From: Psychrobacter sp. 28M-43
GTDB lineage: Bacteria > Pseudomonadota > Gammaproteobacteria > Pseudomonadales > Moraxellaceae
Assembly: GCF_014770435.1 (NCBI RefSeq)
Contig: NZ_CP061739.1
Coordinates: 496,001 to 560,000, forward strand
Direction of reading: 5' to 3'
Length of the DNA stretch: 64,000 nucleotides
Position 1 is the stretch's first letter. Every line of letters begins with the position of its first letter. Shown piece after piece: positions 2,150 through 50,179 of this stretch. The notes beneath the pieces were generated by a model. That model saw only the letters and a program-made list of their open reading frames with translations, did not search any database and was not told the origin of the DNA. Position numbers and translations under genes: made by a program.

Positions 2150-2180
2150 CAGCGTCTCTATTTTAAGTTAACTGTATTTT

Positions 2181-2222
2181 AAAAAAGCACTCATATGTTC
2201 ACAGCGTATGAGTGCTTTTTTG
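2181..2222 (+). terminator. Rho-independent terminator of the Bcr/CflA gene
   Basis: An 11-bp stem (AAGCACTCATA / TATGAGTGCTT) with T6 follows the exporter gene. It separates that gene from the signalling unit downstream. Confidence 0.9.
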
Positions 2223-2506: not shown

Positions 2507-3370
2507 ATGATGCAGTTATATCGAGCGTTACCGATTCTTTTGGGTATTGGCCTATTCGGCTGCGGTAATTCTACTACTCAAGAAAGTGTAAGCACACCAG
2601 TAAAGGAAGACACAGATAGCTTTGTAAGTAATTTGCCTGATACGGCTCCAGTTATTAAGGTCGGTACTGAAGCTAATTATGCTCCTTATGAATTTAAAGA
2701 TGAATATGGAAATGTAACAGGCTTCGATATAGAACTGATGCAATATATTGGTGAAAATCAAGGTTTTAAAGTTGAAGTTTATAATGATCCTTGGGAAGGA
2801 TTGTTTGATAACTTGGACAATAAAAGTCGAGACATGGTAGCAGCAGGTCTTACTTACAGTAGCGAGCGTGCTAGCAAATATTTGCTTTCAGATGCTTATG
2901 CGCCTCTTCCTACTAGCCTTGTATATTTAGACGAGTCATTAAATATTAAGTCATTAGATGATTTAGGTACTTTAAGAGTAGGTGTATTGACCAGTTCAGA
3001 ACCTTATGAATACTTCGCACAAGGTAAATATAAATTAGGTTCTTTAGAGCAATATCCGACTACATTTGCAGCGGTAGAAGCGATGGCACAAGACAAGGTC
3101 GATGCTGTCGTAGATGATTCTGGTGTACTCCGTTATACATTGAATGATCTACCCAGTTTGCAGCCACAATACTTTGACTATGAAAGCATTAGAGCGGACG
3201 GTGCTCGCAAAGTATTTCTAGTAGATAAAGCTCAGCCTGACCTGCTGAAAAAAGTGAATACAGGGTTAAAAGGGTTAAAAGAAGACGGTACTTACGCAAA
3301 GTTAACGACTAAATGGTTTGGTACAGATTTGACAAAAGCATCTTTGCAGCAACAGGAAATGTTGCAGTAA
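2507..3370 (+). CDS. Family 3 solute-binding lipoprotein (amino-acid-binding type), probable sensor component
   Basis: A 287-residue periplasmic binding protein of the family 3 (polar amino acid) type. It begins with a lipoprotein signal whose lipobox LFGC puts the lipidated Cys at residue 19, so the protein should be anchored to a membrane facing the periplasm. Family features are the N-terminal IKVGTEANYAPYEFKDEYGNVTGFD type motif, the second-lobe LRVGVLTSSEPYEYF and the C-terminal LKEDGTYAKLTTKWFG. Such proteins usually serve ABC importers, but no permease or ATPase gene is present. Instead a membrane kinase gene follows after 82 bp, which suggests a dedicated sensory role. ATGs at 2507 and 2510 are both possible starts. 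Confidence 0.85.
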   Translation: MMQLYRALPILLGIGLFGCGNSTTQESVSTPVKEDTDSFVSNLPDTAPVIKVGTEANYAPYEFKDEYGNVTGFDIELMQYIGENQGFKVEVYNDPWEGLFDNLDNKSRDMVAAGLTYSSERASKYLLSDAYAPLPTSLVYLDESLNIKSLDDLGTLRVGVLTSSEPYEYFAQGKYKLGSLEQYPTTFAAVEAMAQDKVDAVVDDSGVLRYTLNDLPSLQPQYFDYESIRADGARKVFLVDKAQPDLLKKVNTGLKGLKEDGTYAKLTTKWFGTDLTKASLQQQEMLQ

Positions 3371-3452
3371 CCCTAAGCGTAGTAGTTATGGAACGTATTA
3401 TTTTTAAACAACCATAAATATAAATTTATCTATACATTGAAAGGACTATGCT

Positions 3453-5636
3453 ATGACTATATCAACTCAAAACGGTAACTCGCGTTATCGTGGTTTGATC
3501 TTGTCGATTGCTGCCTTCTTGGCATTGATTGGGATACTGCTTGCATTTACGTTTTATACTTCAAGTGTTCTTGAACGCAACACCACATTGGTAAATATAT
3601 CTAATAAAACAGCTAATAATGCTCAAGCTATCATCAAAGACTTGTTCGACTTACAAGGTAGTATTGGTGAACATATTAATTCTCCTCACCAGAAGCGTGT
3701 AAGAGAGAGACTAGACAATAATACCCAAGGTATTGATCAATTGCTTTCTAGTATGCGCGAAGGTTCGGAGTACATTGACGATTCTGGAAATGCTCATAAA
3801 ATTCCAAGTATTAAAACATCAACTGAATTGGCAGCCTTAGAAAGAGCGCAGCAAGATTGGAGTGAGCTAAAACCACTAATTGCAAATTACCTTGAAGGTG
3901 CTGGTGATATTCGGATAGATTCTTCAGACGAGTTGGCATTAGCATATGAACAGGCAAAAACTTCTAGCTTGAGTATGAACGATGCGCTTGATGAGCTGAC
4001 TAATGAAGTTTACGAAGAAACAAAGCGTCAAGCAACTACCATTCGTCTTATTCAGGTACTTGGTGTTGCCGCTATCTTTACCTACTTCCTAATCTTCGTA
4101 TTCTTCTTTGTACGTCGTCTACGTGAAACGGATGCTGAAGCACTTGCCGCTCGCCAAGAAACGCAAGAAATTATGGAAACAGTAAACACGGGTCTTTTCC
4201 TACTTGATAAGGACTTGAATATTGGTCAACAGCATTCTCGCGCGCTGAACAATATCATCGGCTCTGATAGCTTGGCAGGGGAAAACTTTACCAATGTCTT
4301 GCGTGGTCGTATCTCTGATAAAGACCTCAAGACCACACAGCAGTTTATTGAACAGCTCTATAACCCTCGCGTTAAAGAAAAGCTGGTAGATTCACTTAAC
4401 CCGTTAAACAAGGTCATGCTACATAACTTATCTGACGACAAGAGTCTTGATAATCGCTTCTTGGATTTTAAATTCTCACGTGTTTATGACAATAAAGACA
4501 TTGCTCGTATCTTGGTCAACGTTAACGATGTATCAGATGCAGTCTACTTAGAACAGCGCCTAGAAAAAGAGCGTTCACAAAACGATATGCAGATTGAGAT
4601 GTTAACGACTATCTTGAATGTAAATCCAAAGATTATTAATGAGTTTATTGGTAATACCCAAGCGCATATCGAGAAGATGAATAATATCTTGAAAAATCCT
4701 GGTAGCTCGCAGTATGAGCTTGAAGGCAAATTGAAAGCTATTTATCGTGAAATGCACAGTTTAAAAGGTGAAGCCTCAGCACTAAAACTACACAGCTTTA
4801 CTAAGATTGCTTCTGATGCTGAAGACAAGTTGCATGCATTACAAAACCAAGGTCAGTTGTCTGGTAATGATTTCTTACCATTGGCGGTACATTTGGATGA
4901 CTTACTCAGCTTATCGAACACGATTGCGACGTTGGGTGAGCGTATCAACCGCTCAGCACCGACAGCAGCTAAGTCGTCAACCGTACAAGCACCAGTCGCT
5001 ACTCAAAATCCAGTAGCAGACCATGCAGCTAGCAATGCTGATTTTGATGGTGGGCTAGATATCGACTTAGACAATGAAGCAGATGACGATTTATTGTCTT
5101 TTTACAATGGATTCACAAAAGAGATTGCTGCAAGACAAGGCAAGCGAGTACAGCTAAAAAGTACGACGCTAACCCAAACCAGTATTCCAGCGCATCTTGC
5201 AAAGCCAATCAAAGAAATCAGTATCCAGTTGTTACGTAATGCGGTGGTCCATGGTATCGAGTCGCCAAGTGTGCGTCACACTGCTGGCAAAACTGACGTT
5301 GGGACCATAGATTTGGAAGTGCAAGACAACGGTTCAAACTTTATGTTGGTTGTGCAAGACGACGGACAAGGCGTCAACTATGACAGCATCCGTAATAAAC
5401 TGATTCAAGAAGGTCGTTTCGGTACGGAAGAGGCAAATCAGCTTAGTAAAGGTGACTTGCTCAAACAGCTGTTCTCTTCTGGATTCTCTACTAAAGAGCA
5501 CGCAGATGAAGACGGTGGTCGCGGTGTTGGACTTGATATCATCAAGGCAAAAGTAAAAGAGTATGATGGCAAGCTTAATGTAAATAGCGAGCTAGGTCAG
5601 ATGACACGGTTTGTCATTACTTTACCTAAAGCTTAA
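3453..5636 (+). CDS. Membrane-bound CheA-like hybrid kinase: periplasmic sensor, PAS-like, Hpt and HATPase, no CheW domain
   Basis: A 727-residue sensor kinase. TM1 lies near residues 13-35, a periplasmic region of about 160 residues follows, then TM2 near 199-221. Next come a PAS-like stretch (about 240-350), a helical Hpt domain with phospho-acceptor motif MHSLKGEA (His435), and a CheA-type ATPase: N box LLRNAVVHGIE (Asn596), G1 box DDGQGV (636-641) and G2 box GGRGVGLDI (688-696). It ends straight after the ATPase, so the CheA P5/CheW-coupling domain is absent and receptor-array assembly is unlikely. No classical H-box is seen. The start at 3453 has an AAGGAC site seven bases upstream. The neighbours make it the probable kinase for the receiver at 5698. 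Confidence 0.85.
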   Translation: MTISTQNGNSRYRGLILSIAAFLALIGILLAFTFYTSSVLERNTTLVNISNKTANNAQAIIKDLFDLQGSIGEHINSPHQKRVRERLDNNTQGIDQLLSSMREGSEYIDDSGNAHKIPSIKTSTELAALERAQQDWSELKPLIANYLEGAGDIRIDSSDELALAYEQAKTSSLSMNDALDELTNEVYEETKRQATTIRLIQVLGVAAIFTYFLIFVFFFVRRLRETDAEALAARQETQEIMETVNTGLFLLDKDLNIGQQHSRALNNIIGSDSLAGENFTNVLRGRISDKDLKTTQQFIEQLYNPRVKEKLVDSLNPLNKVMLHNLSDDKSLDNRFLDFKFSRVYDNKDIARILVNVNDVSDAVYLEQRLEKERSQNDMQIEMLTTILNVNPKIINEFIGNTQAHIEKMNNILKNPGSSQYELEGKLKAIYREMHSLKGEASALKLHSFTKIASDAEDKLHALQNQGQLSGNDFLPLAVHLDDLLSLSNTIATLGERINRSAPTAAKSSTVQAPVATQNPVADHAASNADFDGGLDIDLDNEADDDLLSFYNGFTKEIAARQGKRVQLKSTTLTQTSIPAHLAKPIKEISIQLLRNAVVHGIESPSVRHTAGKTDVGTIDLEVQDNGSNFMLVVQDDGQGVNYDSIRNKLIQEGRFGTEEANQLSKGDLLKQLFSSGFSTKEHADEDGGRGVGLDIIKAKVKEYDGKLNVNSELGQMTRFVITLPKA

Positions 5637-5697
5637 TTAAAATAGTAATTATATTGTCAGGGACGACAAGCACTTCATTAAAGGTAGTAGATAAGTT

Positions 5698-6060
5698 ATG
5701 CATAAGTTAATGATTGTTGATGATTCAAATATTATTAGAAACCGTATTCAGCGCGCATACGATTCAGGAAAGTTCATGTTGGTTGCGACAGCGACTAGCG
5801 GTGTTCAAGCCATCGAAAAGTTTAACGTCCATCGTCCTGATGTGATCACCATGGACCTAACCATGCCACAGATGGATGGGCTAGAGTGTATTGAAAAAAT
5901 CATCGCGATTGATCCTGAAGTACGCATTTTAGTGGTATCAGCGTTATCTGACAAAGCCACCGGCATTGAAGCACTGTCGTTAGGTGCTAGCGGATTTTTG
6001 TGCAAGCCTTTTTCGGAAGAGGAGCTTGTAGAGTCTTTGTATGAGCTGATGCAAGACTAA
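5698..6060 (+). CDS. Single-domain CheY-like response regulator
   Basis: A 120-residue stand-alone receiver domain. The acidic pocket is Asp8-Asp9, the phospho-acceptor is Asp53 (TMDLTMP), and the switch residues are Ser81 (VVSALS) and Lys103 (CKPF), so all catalytic positions are intact. There is no DNA-binding or enzymatic output domain; it must act by binding a partner. It lies 61 bp after the CheA-like kinase and 30 bp before the first CheX gene. The obvious reading is that His435 of the kinase feeds Asp53 and that the CheX proteins remove the phosphate; this is inference from gene order. Confidence 0.92.
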   Translation: MHKLMIVDDSNIIRNRIQRAYDSGKFMLVATATSGVQAIEKFNVHRPDVITMDLTMPQMDGLECIEKIIAIDPEVRILVVSALSDKATGIEALSLGASGFLCKPFSEEELVESLYELMQD

Positions 6061-6090
6061 TACCATTCATCGACCAAAGCAGATGTCATT

Positions 6091-6540
6091 ATGAAAGAGC
6101 AAAAGCTACAGATTTTTTTAAGTATTATTAGTAATTATTTTGACCAGTTTGGGGGAGAAGAGCTTATTGCTGATACCCCTTACTTACTAGAAAACAAACA
6201 GCCAAAAGTCCACGATTATACGGGCGTGATTGGTATATCTGGTGGCCAAAAAGGGGTGGTGTATTTTTCGGCGACGCGTGACTTGCTGTCTTCAATATTA
6301 GACAGCATGGGCGAAACCGATAAAAGTGAAGAGAACTATGTAGATCTGGCTGGGGAAGTGGCCAATACAATTGCAGGCAATGCACGCAAAGAGTTTGGCT
6401 CAGAGTTTCATATCTCTGTACCATTTGTGTTCAAAGGTGCGCCGCAAAGTATTGTGTTGCCGAACGATGAGCGTTCTTTTATCATCCCCATCACTTGGCA
6501 TTCTCAAGTAGGCGAGATTGTGGTTTGTTTGCAAGACTAA
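6091..6540 (+). CDS. CheX-like phosphatase, first copy
   Basis: A 149-residue protein of the CheX family, which in Thermotoga and Borrelia dephosphorylates CheY-P. The key helix is DLAGEVANTIAGNARKEFG, with the catalytic-type Glu89 and Asn92 (ExxN) and the conserved GNAR at 96-99. The fold is predicted as one CheX domain with no fused partner. The gene sits 30 bp after the receiver and 35 bp before a second paralogue. The copies share the ExxN helix, a DTPYL segment and a DY(T/S)GVI segment, so they look like an old tandem duplication. Confidence 0.85.
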   Translation: MKEQKLQIFLSIISNYFDQFGGEELIADTPYLLENKQPKVHDYTGVIGISGGQKGVVYFSATRDLLSSILDSMGETDKSEENYVDLAGEVANTIAGNARKEFGSEFHISVPFVFKGAPQSIVLPNDERSFIIPITWHSQVGEIVVCLQD

Positions 6541-6575
6541 TGCTGCCACGTAATACAGATGGATATTAATATATT

Positions 6576-7025
6576 ATGGTTAAAGTAGAAAAATTGGGTG
6601 TGTTTCTAAGCTCGATTAATGCGTTTTTTGCGCAAATCGATGGCTCAGAAGTGTCAATTGATACCCCTTACTTGAACAACAACAAAAGCGCGATTGGCTT
6701 TGATTATAGCGGTGTTATCAAGATATCAGGGCCTTTAGAGGGCTGCGTCTATGTCAGTGCACCAAGCGTTATGTTGCGAGAAGTCATCAAAGTGATGGGC
6801 GAGCCTGACTCTTCAATCACCATGATGAAAGATTTGTTGGGTGAAATGGCCAATACAATCTCAGGTAATGCTCGTACAGAGTTTGGTTCAGAGTTTATTA
6901 TCTCTCCGCCGCACATTGTGGAGAGTGCGCCAAGCGTGTCTTATTTGCCTAAAGATCGTCAAAGTTATATCACACCATTTACGTGGCGTGGTTACAAAGC
7001 GGTCATCGGTATTTGCATTGCATAA
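6576..7025 (+). CDS. CheX-like phosphatase, second copy
   Basis: A 149-residue paralogue of the preceding protein, equal in length. It keeps the phosphatase helix DLLGEMANTISGNARTEFG with Glu90 and Asn93, and has diverged elsewhere, mostly in the first 60 residues and the C-terminus. CheX proteins studied elsewhere are homodimers; two co-encoded variants could form a heterodimer, or one could act on a different receiver. It is the last gene of the unit and is followed by a terminator. Confidence 0.85.
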   Translation: MVKVEKLGVFLSSINAFFAQIDGSEVSIDTPYLNNNKSAIGFDYSGVIKISGPLEGCVYVSAPSVMLREVIKVMGEPDSSITMMKDLLGEMANTISGNARTEFGSEFIISPPHIVESAPSVSYLPKDRQSYITPFTWRGYKAVIGICIA

Positions 7026-7114
7026 GTTATAGTCAATCCTCTAAACGAGTGATAACTATAAAAGAGCGACAGCATTAACCTTGCTTGAAAGTAGCTATTA
7101 AAAAGATAATTATG

Positions 7115-7147
7115 AAAAAAGCGATGCAATTGCGTCGCTTTTTTTTG
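7115..7147 (+). terminator. Terminator closing the five-gene signalling operon
   Basis: A GCGA...TCGC stem with a near-palindromic interior (7121-7138) is preceded by A6 and followed by T7. Together with the hairpin at 2181-2222 it brackets the genes from 2507 to 7025 as one transcription unit. Confidence 0.85.
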
Positions 7148-7202
7148 TTTTATTATCGCCATATTTTGTTTTTATCTTATTGATACACTACGAATAAACT
7201 GC

Positions 7203-47620: not shown

Positions 47621-47696
<76 letters not shown>

Positions 47697-47763
47697 TCTC
47701 TCTTAAAGTAGCTTTTTATGAATTTGTCTTAAATGTAAGTCATTTTTGTTCAAAGCAACCTAA

Positions 47764-47847
47764 GGTGGGGTTGGGGAGCGGTCAAACCCAACAGACTGTA
47801 AATCTGTCGCGAAAGCTTCGAAGGTTCGAATCCTTCCCCCACCACCA
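47764..47847 (+). tRNA. tRNA-Tyr (anticodon GTA)
   Basis: 84 bases with a long variable arm, as expected for tRNA-Tyr, and encoded CCA. The acceptor GGTGGGG pairs with CCCCACC; the anticodon GTA is at 47798-47800. Confidence 0.97.
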
Positions 47848-47931
47848 TATTTTCTAAAGTTTGTCATAGCGCCAAGCATACTCTCTATATCTCATAACTC
47901 TCGATTAGAGTTATCCTGAATAAGAGTAAAT

Positions 47932-48005
47932 GCGGGTGTGGTATAATGGTAACACCTTAGCCTTCCAAGCTAATGACGCGGGTTCGATTCCCGCCACCCG
48001 CTCCA
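47932..48005 (+). tRNA. tRNA-Gly (anticodon TCC)
   Basis: 74 bases with encoded CCA. The acceptor GCGGGTG pairs with CACCCGC; the anticodon TCC is at 47964-47966. Confidence 0.97.
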
Positions 48006-48108
48006 TATATACACCATCGCAAAGCATAACAATAAATCATCACGAGAGTCAGTAATTATTGCTGCATCGTGATATTTTTTTTAGTGCAGTTCAAAGGTTT
48101 CAATATAC

Positions 48109-48183
<75 letters not shown>

Positions 48184-48988: not shown

Positions 48989-50179
48989 ATGGCAAAGGCC
49001 AAGTTTGAACGTAACAAGCCACACGTCAACGTCGGTACAATCGGACACGTTGACCATGGTAAAACAACCCTTACCGCTGCAATCGCAACCGTAGCTGCAA
49101 TCACCTCTGGTGGCGAAGCCAAAGACTACGCGTCTATTGACTCAGCACCAGAAGAAAAAGCACGTGGTATCACAATCAACACCTCACACGTAGAATATGA
49201 CACAGACAGCCGTCACTACGCACACGTAGATTGCCCAGGTCACGCCGATTATGTTAAAAACATGATCACTGGTGCGGCACAGATGGACGGCGCAATCCTA
49301 GTCGTATCTGCAACTGACGGCCCAATGCCACAGACTCGTGAGCACATCTTGCTTTCACGTCAGGTTGGCGTACCGTACATCATCGTATTCATGAACAAAT
49401 GTGACATGGTTGATGACGAAGAATTGTTAGAGCTAGTAGAAATGGAAGTTCGTGAATTATTGAACGACTATGACTTCCCAGGCGATGACACTCCTATCGT
49501 TAAAGGTTCTGCTACTGAAGCCCTAAAAGGCTCAGAAGAAAAATACGGCCAACCAGCTGTTGTAGAACTACTAAACGTACTAGACACTTATATCCCAGAG
49601 CCAGAGCGTGACATCGACAAAGCATTCCTAATGCCAATCGAAGACGTATTCTCAATCTCAGGTCGTGGTACTGTAGTAACAGGCCGTGTTGAATCTGGTA
49701 TCGTTAAAGTTGGCGACGAGATCGAAATCGTTGGTATCCGTGACACTCAAAAAACCACCTGTACTGGTGTAGAGATGTTCCGTAAACTGCTTGACGAAGG
49801 TCGTGCAGGCGAAAACTGTGGCGTACTACTACGTGGTACTAAGCGTGAAGACGTACAACGTGGTCAAGTACTAGCTAAGCCAGGTTCAATCACTCCTCAC
49901 ACCAAGTTTGACGCTGAAGTATATGTATTGTCAAAAGAAGAGGGTGGTCGTCACACACCATTCCTAAACGGCTATCGTCCACAGTTCTACTTCCGTACTA
50001 CTGACGTAACTGGCGCAATCCAATTACAAGACGGTACTGAAATGGTAATGCCTGGTGATAACGTTGAGATGGGCGTAGAGCTTATCCATCCAATCGCTAT
50101 GGACAAAGGTCTTCGCTTCGCAATTCGTGAAGGCGGCCGTACTGTAGGCGCTGGTGTTGTTGCTAACGTATTGAACTAA
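48989..50179 (+). CDS. tuf: Translation elongation factor Tu
   Basis: A 396-residue EF-Tu, the GTPase that delivers aminoacyl-tRNA to the ribosome and is recycled by EF-Ts (encoded at 8654). G1 GHVDHGKTT, switch [18 protein letters not shown]3 DCPGHADY, G4 NKCD and the domain II/III blocks are complete. Its position after Thr-Tyr-Gly-Thr tRNAs matches E. coli tufB; a second tuf copy in an rpsG-fusA operon elsewhere is likely but not visible here. Confidence 0.98.

Follow-up and report, generated by a model that had tools for sequence, protein, structure and literature searches.

A kinase-receiver-CheX operon in Psychrobacter with a seemingly exchangeable ligand-recognition cassette

Introduction

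In the CheA-CheY-CheX type of chemotaxis, CheX acts in Thermotoga and Borrelia. In the Pil-Chp system, PilJ is a methyl-accepting chemotaxis protein (MCP) that acts through the CheW-type PilI and ChpA. Periplasmic binding proteins are paired with sensor kinases in XylFII-LytS, TorT-TorS, LuxP-LuxQ and HptA-HptS, where the kinases are of the ordinary DHp kind and some are hybrids. The operon described here likewise encodes a binding protein next to a sensor kinase, together with a CheY-type receiver and two CheX proteins. It lies in a stretch of 64,000 nucleotides, hereafter the window, from Psychrobacter sp. 28M-43 (RefSeq assembly GCF_014770435.1, contig NZ_CP061739.1, positions 496,001 to 560,000). 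The original prediction, made from the window alone, had described a self-contained, five-gene relay from ligand to CheY; its observation was confirmed, and its interpretation was partly supported.

Part of this gene set has been noted before. According to the available text of a 2016 genome paper, 16 Psychrobacter strains carry cheY and cheX and four carry cheR, the other chemotaxis and flagella genes being absent; that text names neither the kinase nor the binding protein (PMC4754876). As the original prediction had supposed, a functional account of the kinase-receiver-CheX set was not found among the papers listed in the literature searches, most subscription papers being outside their reach, and the available portions of PMC8789113 and PMC2577667 contain nothing on this gene set.

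Variation of the Ligand-Recognition Parts

Over 36 distinct Psychrobacter loci with a full-length kinase, we compared the parts of the operon separately, taking kinase residues 223-727 as the core. Left out of this set were a locus at a contig end (L018), one with a split kinase (L023), one with a broken kinase and a single CheX gene (L026), 11 loci that share another's kinase, and L134 and L135. The receiver and two CheX genes were present in 36/36 loci, and a binding-protein gene adjoined the kinase gene in 29, with none found there in the remaining seven. The genes were thus regularly, rather than rarely, found together in relatives, in line with the original prediction.

Compared with L002, the window is nearly unchanged in its relay (identity of 99% in the core, 100% in the receiver and the first CheX, 99% in the second CheX) and far removed in its outward-facing parts (47% in the periplasmic sensor of the kinase, 41% in the binding protein). 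The sensor and binding protein of L063 are 84% and 85% identical to those of the window; its core matches that of L011 at about 100% identity, their sensors sharing 48% identity and their binding proteins 44%. Along the window, identity to L002 drops at about 2640-2651, from 19-24/25 to 9-19/25 per bin, and climbs at about 4033, from 13/20 to 20/20. The breaks fall near binding-protein codons 45-55 and kinase codon 194, just before the second membrane helix (TM2), in both the window-L002 and the L063-L011 comparisons.

Quick-search phylogenies under LG+G4, covering 23 of the 29 binding-protein loci, placed L063 with L011 in the core tree (support 98), whereas its partner was the window in the sensor (95) and binding-protein (94) trees. 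In approximately unbiased tests, a grouping of the window with L063 was rejected for the core (p 7e-10), and one of L063 with L011 was rejected for the sensor (p 3e-98) and the binding protein (p 2e-44), the groups having been named after the identities were seen. Two further pairs were sisters in the sensor and binding-protein trees and not in the core tree: L019 with L067 (support 99 and 100) and L071 with L073 (support in the sensor tree just 49). Binding-protein distances correlate with sensor distances (r 0.88; partial 0.87 given the core; 0/2000 permutations as high), and the two follow the core poorly (0.19 and 0.25). Within the commoner cassette type alone, the partial correlation between binding protein and sensor is 0.44, again with 0/2000 permutations as high. 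The three loci of the window's type share a longer spacer ahead of the kinase (68-82 bases vs 5-14), and the sensors of the seven loci without a binding protein are 9-18% identical to the others, at a core identity of 67-91%.

From these comparisons, the binding-protein domain and the periplasmic half of the kinase appear to vary together on a nearly constant core in Psychrobacter. The straightforward reading would be that the outward-facing parts recombine as a unit. Two binding-protein genes stand in tandem ahead of the kinase at L014 (2244-4273) and L135 (5387-7949); unequal tandem copies of this kind could be a step toward cassette exchange.

Distribution of the Kinase-Receiver-CheX Unit

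A scan of named genomes with an alignment of six kinases gave 576 confirmed matches, of which the best 80 loci, 23 of them in Psychrobacter, were listed; these are the top of a ranked list and no fair sample. The 57 listed loci outside Psychrobacter, together with L028 and L029, form a set of 59. Among the matches listed, kinase, receiver and CheX recur in beta- and gammaproteobacteria and, outside these, in one Verrucomicrobium and two spirochaetes, with a receiver beside the kinase in 53/59 loci and a CheX in 47/59. Six loci had no receiver found by our script: L074 and L077 run off the contig, L048 and L111 show one under another frame or threshold, and L109 and L112 show none. Four of the twelve loci lacking a CheX lie at or near contig ends (L028, L074, L077 and L080). 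The usual gene order is kinase-receiver-CheX, with receiver-CheX-kinase in the spirochaetes L111 and L113.

Judged by this recurrence, kinase-receiver-CheX would be the unit, on which the five-gene operon elaborates. Of the relay originally predicted, the kinase-CheY-CheX part stands, with the binding protein as its likely input; the five-gene set is not itself the unit, the binding protein being variable and exchanged with the sensor half of the kinase. Taken together, we lean towards an array-free kinase-receiver-CheX class in at least three phyla, whose ligand-recognition parts would form a swappable cassette in Psychrobacter, strains swapping what they sense and keeping how they respond.

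The kinase is widely scattered, not common: when 369 genomes were drawn evenly from the class, 13 were found to have it. Within the genus, it was found in 27 of 36 genomes, all with CheX over the cut-off (two in 26 genomes, one in G029). Seven of the nine kinase-free genomes had no CheX match, G020 had a sub-cut-off remnant, in which the second CheX gene survives as its 3' part alone, and G021 had a CheX at a contig start. For these nine, a search from the MFS transporter gene that precedes the operon reached rpsB in four; in the other five it hit an MFS copy of lower similarity (68-77% identity), which is uninformative on the site. In the operon-free G016, G011 and G030, about 310-370 bases separate the MFS gene from rpsB downstream of it. 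The operon set is mostly kept or lost as a block. Decayed operons were also seen, with a kinase split by an insertion in G002 and a broken kinase with one CheX in G029. At L023 (4023-8148), the insertion that interrupts the kinase gene carries two open reading frames (ORFs) that are transposase-like by eye, and the receiver and both CheX genes are full length.

The catalytic residues were counted in 95 kinases, 89 receivers and 119 CheX proteins from fetched loci. The equivalent of the kinase phosphosite His435 is kept in 94/95, the remaining one (L046) reading X. Receiver residues D8, D9 and D53 are kept in 89/89, S81 in 88 (T in one) and K103 in 88 (a gap in one). The Glu and Asn of Glu-x-x-Asn, which we take to be the CheX catalytic motif, are kept in 119/119. 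Because both CheX proteins of the window keep this pair, both are probably active, and their closest solved chains are CheX or CheC-like.

The two CheX proteins of the window are 47% identical. A quick tree of 79 CheX proteins placed first and second CheX in separate groups, with Shimodaira-Hasegawa-like approximate likelihood ratio supports of 97 and 98, and the lone CheX of Neisseria (L075, L079) and Cardiobacteriaceae (L098) clustered with the first. Among sister-genus loci with a single CheX, L116, L124 and L127 retain the second and L128 the first. This grouping and retention suggest that the duplication predates Psychrobacter and that the second CheX is an old paralogue, in a tree whose deep branches are open and some long, leaving the age of the duplication unsure.

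Operon Organisation and Domain Content

The operon is placed between an MFS transporter gene and rpsB-tsf (Table 1). Its five same-strand ORFs are separated, in order, by 82, 61, 30 and 35 bases, as had been reported. The flanking terminators of the original prediction were likewise recovered, both hairpins being followed by runs of T; the upstream one probably belongs to the MFS gene. A terminator consensus scan listed the downstream hairpin with 14 pairs and just shorter stems at the upstream site. Promoter-like matches in the operon region were at chance level (16 found vs 15.4 expected). Elsewhere in the window, four clustered tRNA genes (Thr, Tyr, Gly, Thr) at 47621-48183 lie upstream of an ORF at 48989 that is EF-Tu-like by eye.

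Table 1. Positions of the operon genes, their domains and flanking features, numbered from the first base of the window.
Feature	Positions	Strand	Evidence
Hairpin terminator before operon	2180..2222	+	Fold of 2176-2230: -24.4 kcal/mol, z -6.59, 0/200 shuffles as good
Solute-binding lipoprotein of family 3 (287 aa); Cys19 in lipobox; residues 50-272 form the binding domain	2507..3370	+	PF00497 (SBP_bac_3) 3.6e-35
Putative exchangeable cassette: binding domain, spacer, kinase N-terminus with first membrane helix, periplasmic sensor	2640..4035	+	Identity breaks vs L002; tree conflict
Sensor kinase (727 aa) with two membrane helices and PAS-like, Hpt and HATPase domains; P5 absent	3453..5636	+	Pfam and predicted structure
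Periplasmic four-helix sensor of kinase, residues 38-196	3564..4040	+	
PAS-like domain of kinase, residues 244-359	4182..4529	+	Predicted alpha/beta fold
Hpt domain of kinase, residues 392-501; phosphosite His435 at 4755-4757	4626..4955	+	
CheA P4-type ATPase domain, residues 543-727	5079..5633	+	
Stand-alone CheY-type receiver, 120 aa, Asp53 at 5854-5856	5698..6060	+	PF00072 (Response_reg) 1.7e-28
Putative CheX phosphatase 1, 149 aa, motif Glu89-x-x-Asn92	6091..6540	+	PF13690 7.6e-21
Putative CheX phosphatase 2, 149 aa, motif Glu90-x-x-Asn93	6576..7025	+	PF13690 5.6e-19
Terminator after operon	7114..7145	+	Fold of 7100-7155: -20.8 kcal/mol, z -6.03, 0/200 shuffles as good

Pfam matches bore out the predicted domains of all five proteins, and His435 and Asp53 were found where they had been placed. 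In the kinase, the matches were to Hpt (PF01627 at residues 394-482, 4.3e-07) and HATPase_c (5.8e-15); the Hpt is CheA-P1-like and the ATPase CheA-P4-like. The window's own kinase has no Pfam PAS match, and the PAS_8 match in the relative L036 (E 0.006) is under the family's curated cut-off. The CheW-like P5 domain occurs in 100% of CheA according to the available text of PMC10782961. In the operon kinase it is missing, as predicted: no PF01584 match was found at E up to 1, and the ATPase domain forms the end of the protein. There was also no match to the P3 dimerisation hairpin (PF02895) at E up to 1, though HMMER often misses P3, as the same text has it (PMC10782961). Between Hpt and ATPase, the structure model shows a disordered stretch and one helix.

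The binding protein carries a lipobox-like LFGC with Cys19 as its last residue, presumably the lipidation signal. Among solved structures, it comes closest to reconstructed ancestral binding proteins and to those of the amino-acid type, and our best guess for the ligand is an amino-acid-like small solute.

Proposed Mechanism and Alternatives

We consider it likely that the operon is an array-free chemosensory-type two-component system with the binding protein as kinase input, on the basis of the gene set, domains, catalytic residues, mosaic history of the cassette and presence in CheW-free genomes, all read at the level of sequence. The lipid-anchored binding protein would capture a small solute and dock on the kinase at its helical periplasmic domain. 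A signal passing through TM2 and the PAS-like domain would set the rate at which the CheA-type ATPase phosphorylates His435 in the built-in Hpt domain, from which the phosphoryl group would pass to Asp53 of the lone receiver. The phosphorylated receiver may work by binding a target protein, and the two CheX proteins would strip its phosphoryl group, shortening the signal. Cassette exchange between strains would then alter which ligand is sensed without changing the relay.

Other chemosensory genes bear on whether such a relay stands alone. The operon contains no CheW or MCP gene, as originally claimed; the genome itself does have a cluster, at 2.64 Mb of the 3.12-Mb contig (the operon lies at 0.50 Mb), that contains its sole MCP match and both of its CheW matches. 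This cluster includes a 2294-amino-acid ChpA-like frame, and from domain content we assume its members to be PilJ, PilI and ChpA. The MCP search covered the window's own genome; CheW and output families were searched in 25 kinase-bearing genomes, hand-chosen for spread. In 23 of these, a receiver and a CheX both adjoin the kinase; at that place L090 (Conchiformibius) has no CheX, and L109 (Calditrichaeota) has neither. The operon could be an accessory arm of a Pil-Chp-like system, ChpA also phosphorylating its receiver or the receiver competing with PilG/PilH. The MCP, CheW and ChpA-like cluster in the same genome speaks for this, as does the PilT family, found over the cut-off in 22 of the 25 (the count being confined to kinase-bearing genomes). 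Yet the other three have no PilT-family match over the cut-off, and five have no CheW match: Neisseria L075 and L079, Conchiformibius L090, Cardiobacteriaceae L098 and Rubritalea L099. L075, L090 and L098, being assembled from metagenomes, may be incomplete; L079 and L099 are recorded as isolates, and in both of them kinase, receiver and CheX are all present. We regard an accessory arm as unlikely.

Several observations weigh against the array-free, binding-protein-gated system proposed above. Eight of the 59 kinase loci outside the genus have room for a CheX and carry none nearby, and the paralogues L117, L120, L122, L125 and L130 are kinase-receiver pairs without a nearby CheX; CheX would therefore not seem essential to the wider kinase-receiver family. 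An SBP_bac_3 neighbour is absent at the seven same-genus loci and at most other-genus loci. Within the commoner cassette type, some tree neighbours (L002, L006, L008) differ between the binding-protein and sensor trees, which suggests that the two parts are separable, although several of these forks are weakly supported. The window's cassette type occurs in 3 of 29 loci, and the lack of mixed types carries little weight. Adjacent genes can also travel together without interacting; in the available text of PMC11113362, neighbouring solute-binding protein and kinase genes of P. aeruginosa encode proteins that do not bind.

That published case, the physical linkage of the two genes and their partial separation within a cassette type would all fit a binding protein that is a bystander, serving an ATP-binding cassette (ABC) transporter encoded elsewhere and co-varying with the sensor through a shared recombination tract. 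We hold this to be unlikely as well. In both exchanges examined, one end of the tract lies close to where the binding domain starts and the other just before TM2, and 22 of the 29 binding-protein genes stop 12 bases short of the kinase. Another kind of sensor is present in 7/7 loci without a binding protein, and a different binding-protein family, Peripla_BP_4, stands beside the kinase in Cardiobacteriaceae (L098) and sister genera (L117, L128). The position of the junctions at the borders of domains, the distinct sensors of those seven loci and the pairing with Peripla_BP_4 in other lineages favour a binding protein and sensor that must match, as we infer, and the co-variation within the cassette favours the binding protein as kinase input.

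Some loci show other arrangements around the kinase. At L022, L024, L025 and L027, which have no binding protein, about 580-920 bases from MFS gene to kinase hold no ORF of at least 100 amino acids. At L128 (4059-12178), two kinase-receiver pairs stand in tandem, accompanied by a single CheX and a single Peripla_BP_4 lipoprotein. The beta- and gammaproteobacterial loci L037, L041, L042 and L050 encode solute-binding proteins that are NMT1-like by eye, some several kb off the kinase.

Lastly, the receiver stands alone with two phosphatases, and no output gene is linked to it; this might suggest a phosphate sink merely quenching the kinase, which we think very improbable, as the kinase has its own input domain, no other phosphorylation target was found in the operon, and the receiver is 85-100% identical over the 36 loci, as expected for partner binding, though kinase and CheX are partners too.

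Candidate Outputs

Type IV pili are common in these lineages, so that the PilT-family count in kinase-bearing genomes says little; the matches include all five genomes without CheW. We tentatively suggest type IV pili or another surface behaviour as the target of the receiver, a proposal that may well prove wrong. Other outputs were considered. The window's genome has no flagellin match, in keeping with the non-flagellate host foreseen by the original prediction. Flagellin was found in just 12 of the 25 kinase-bearing genomes and in none of the other 13, including all five without CheW, and we rejected flagella as a necessary output. GGDEF had no match in four of the 25, all among the five without a CheW match, and a sub-cut-off match in L098. 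On these gaps, cyclic di-GMP was rejected as a necessary output for the module as a whole; the rejection does not extend to the window's genome, where three GGDEF matches were found.

Clustering of neighbouring genes over 58 loci (the 57 listed non-Psychrobacter loci and L029) gave no shared output gene in most of them. The largest other group, in 21 loci, is an artefact: because the longest frame was taken, frames antisense to the receiver and CheX genes were picked up. Further groups were a TonB_C protein (nine loci), ABC-type ATPases by eye (eight loci) and Peripla_BP_4 lipoproteins (eight in five loci, one checked). In a sister genus, L117 (5067-8600; also L125 and L126) has a second kinase-receiver pair without CheX, beside Roadblock/LC7 and GTPase-like proteins. 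This second pair of L117 also has a Peripla_BP_4 lipoprotein, and in L126 an ORF that is insertion sequence-like by eye lies between kinase and receiver. These neighbours resemble an MglA/MglB-type output. Such an output was rejected for the operon: its own genome has no match to that GTPase, which is present in 15 same-genus genomes and missing from kinase-bearing ones such as G000, G018 and G130.

Hpt, ATPase, receiver and phosphatase parts occur in genomes that gave no CheW match, which separates the phosphorelay from the receptor array and makes the role of the receiver there a clean question. The natural mosaics, window/L002 and L063/L011, are ready-made swaps with near-identical relays and different recognition halves, in which ligand and contact between binding protein and sensor are testable.

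Comparison with Known Systems

Compared with CheA-CheY-CheX chemotaxis, the Psychrobacter unit is without CheW, receptors, P5 and adaptation enzymes, and the kinase is itself the transmembrane sensor. A PilJ-type sensor domain is shared between the Pil-Chp system and two relatives of the operon kinase (L036, L048); unlike in Pil-Chp, the operon kinase has a sensor built in and lacks a CheW-like domain. It is also of the Hpt-P4 type and accompanied by CheX, unlike the DHp kinases of the binding-protein-dependent systems. Among the latter, the available texts describe the TorS sensor as all-helical (PMC8534201) and the LytS sensor as four-helix (PMC9769921). In the model for GlnH-GlnX of Corynebacterium glutamicum, as far as the available text goes, an SBP_bac_3 protein is combined with a four-helix membrane partner, as in the operon (PMC9769921). 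The downstream kinase of that system is PknG, unlike in the operon. A binding protein acting on a four-helix sensor has its closest precedents in XylFII-LytS and GlnH-GlnX (PMC9769921).

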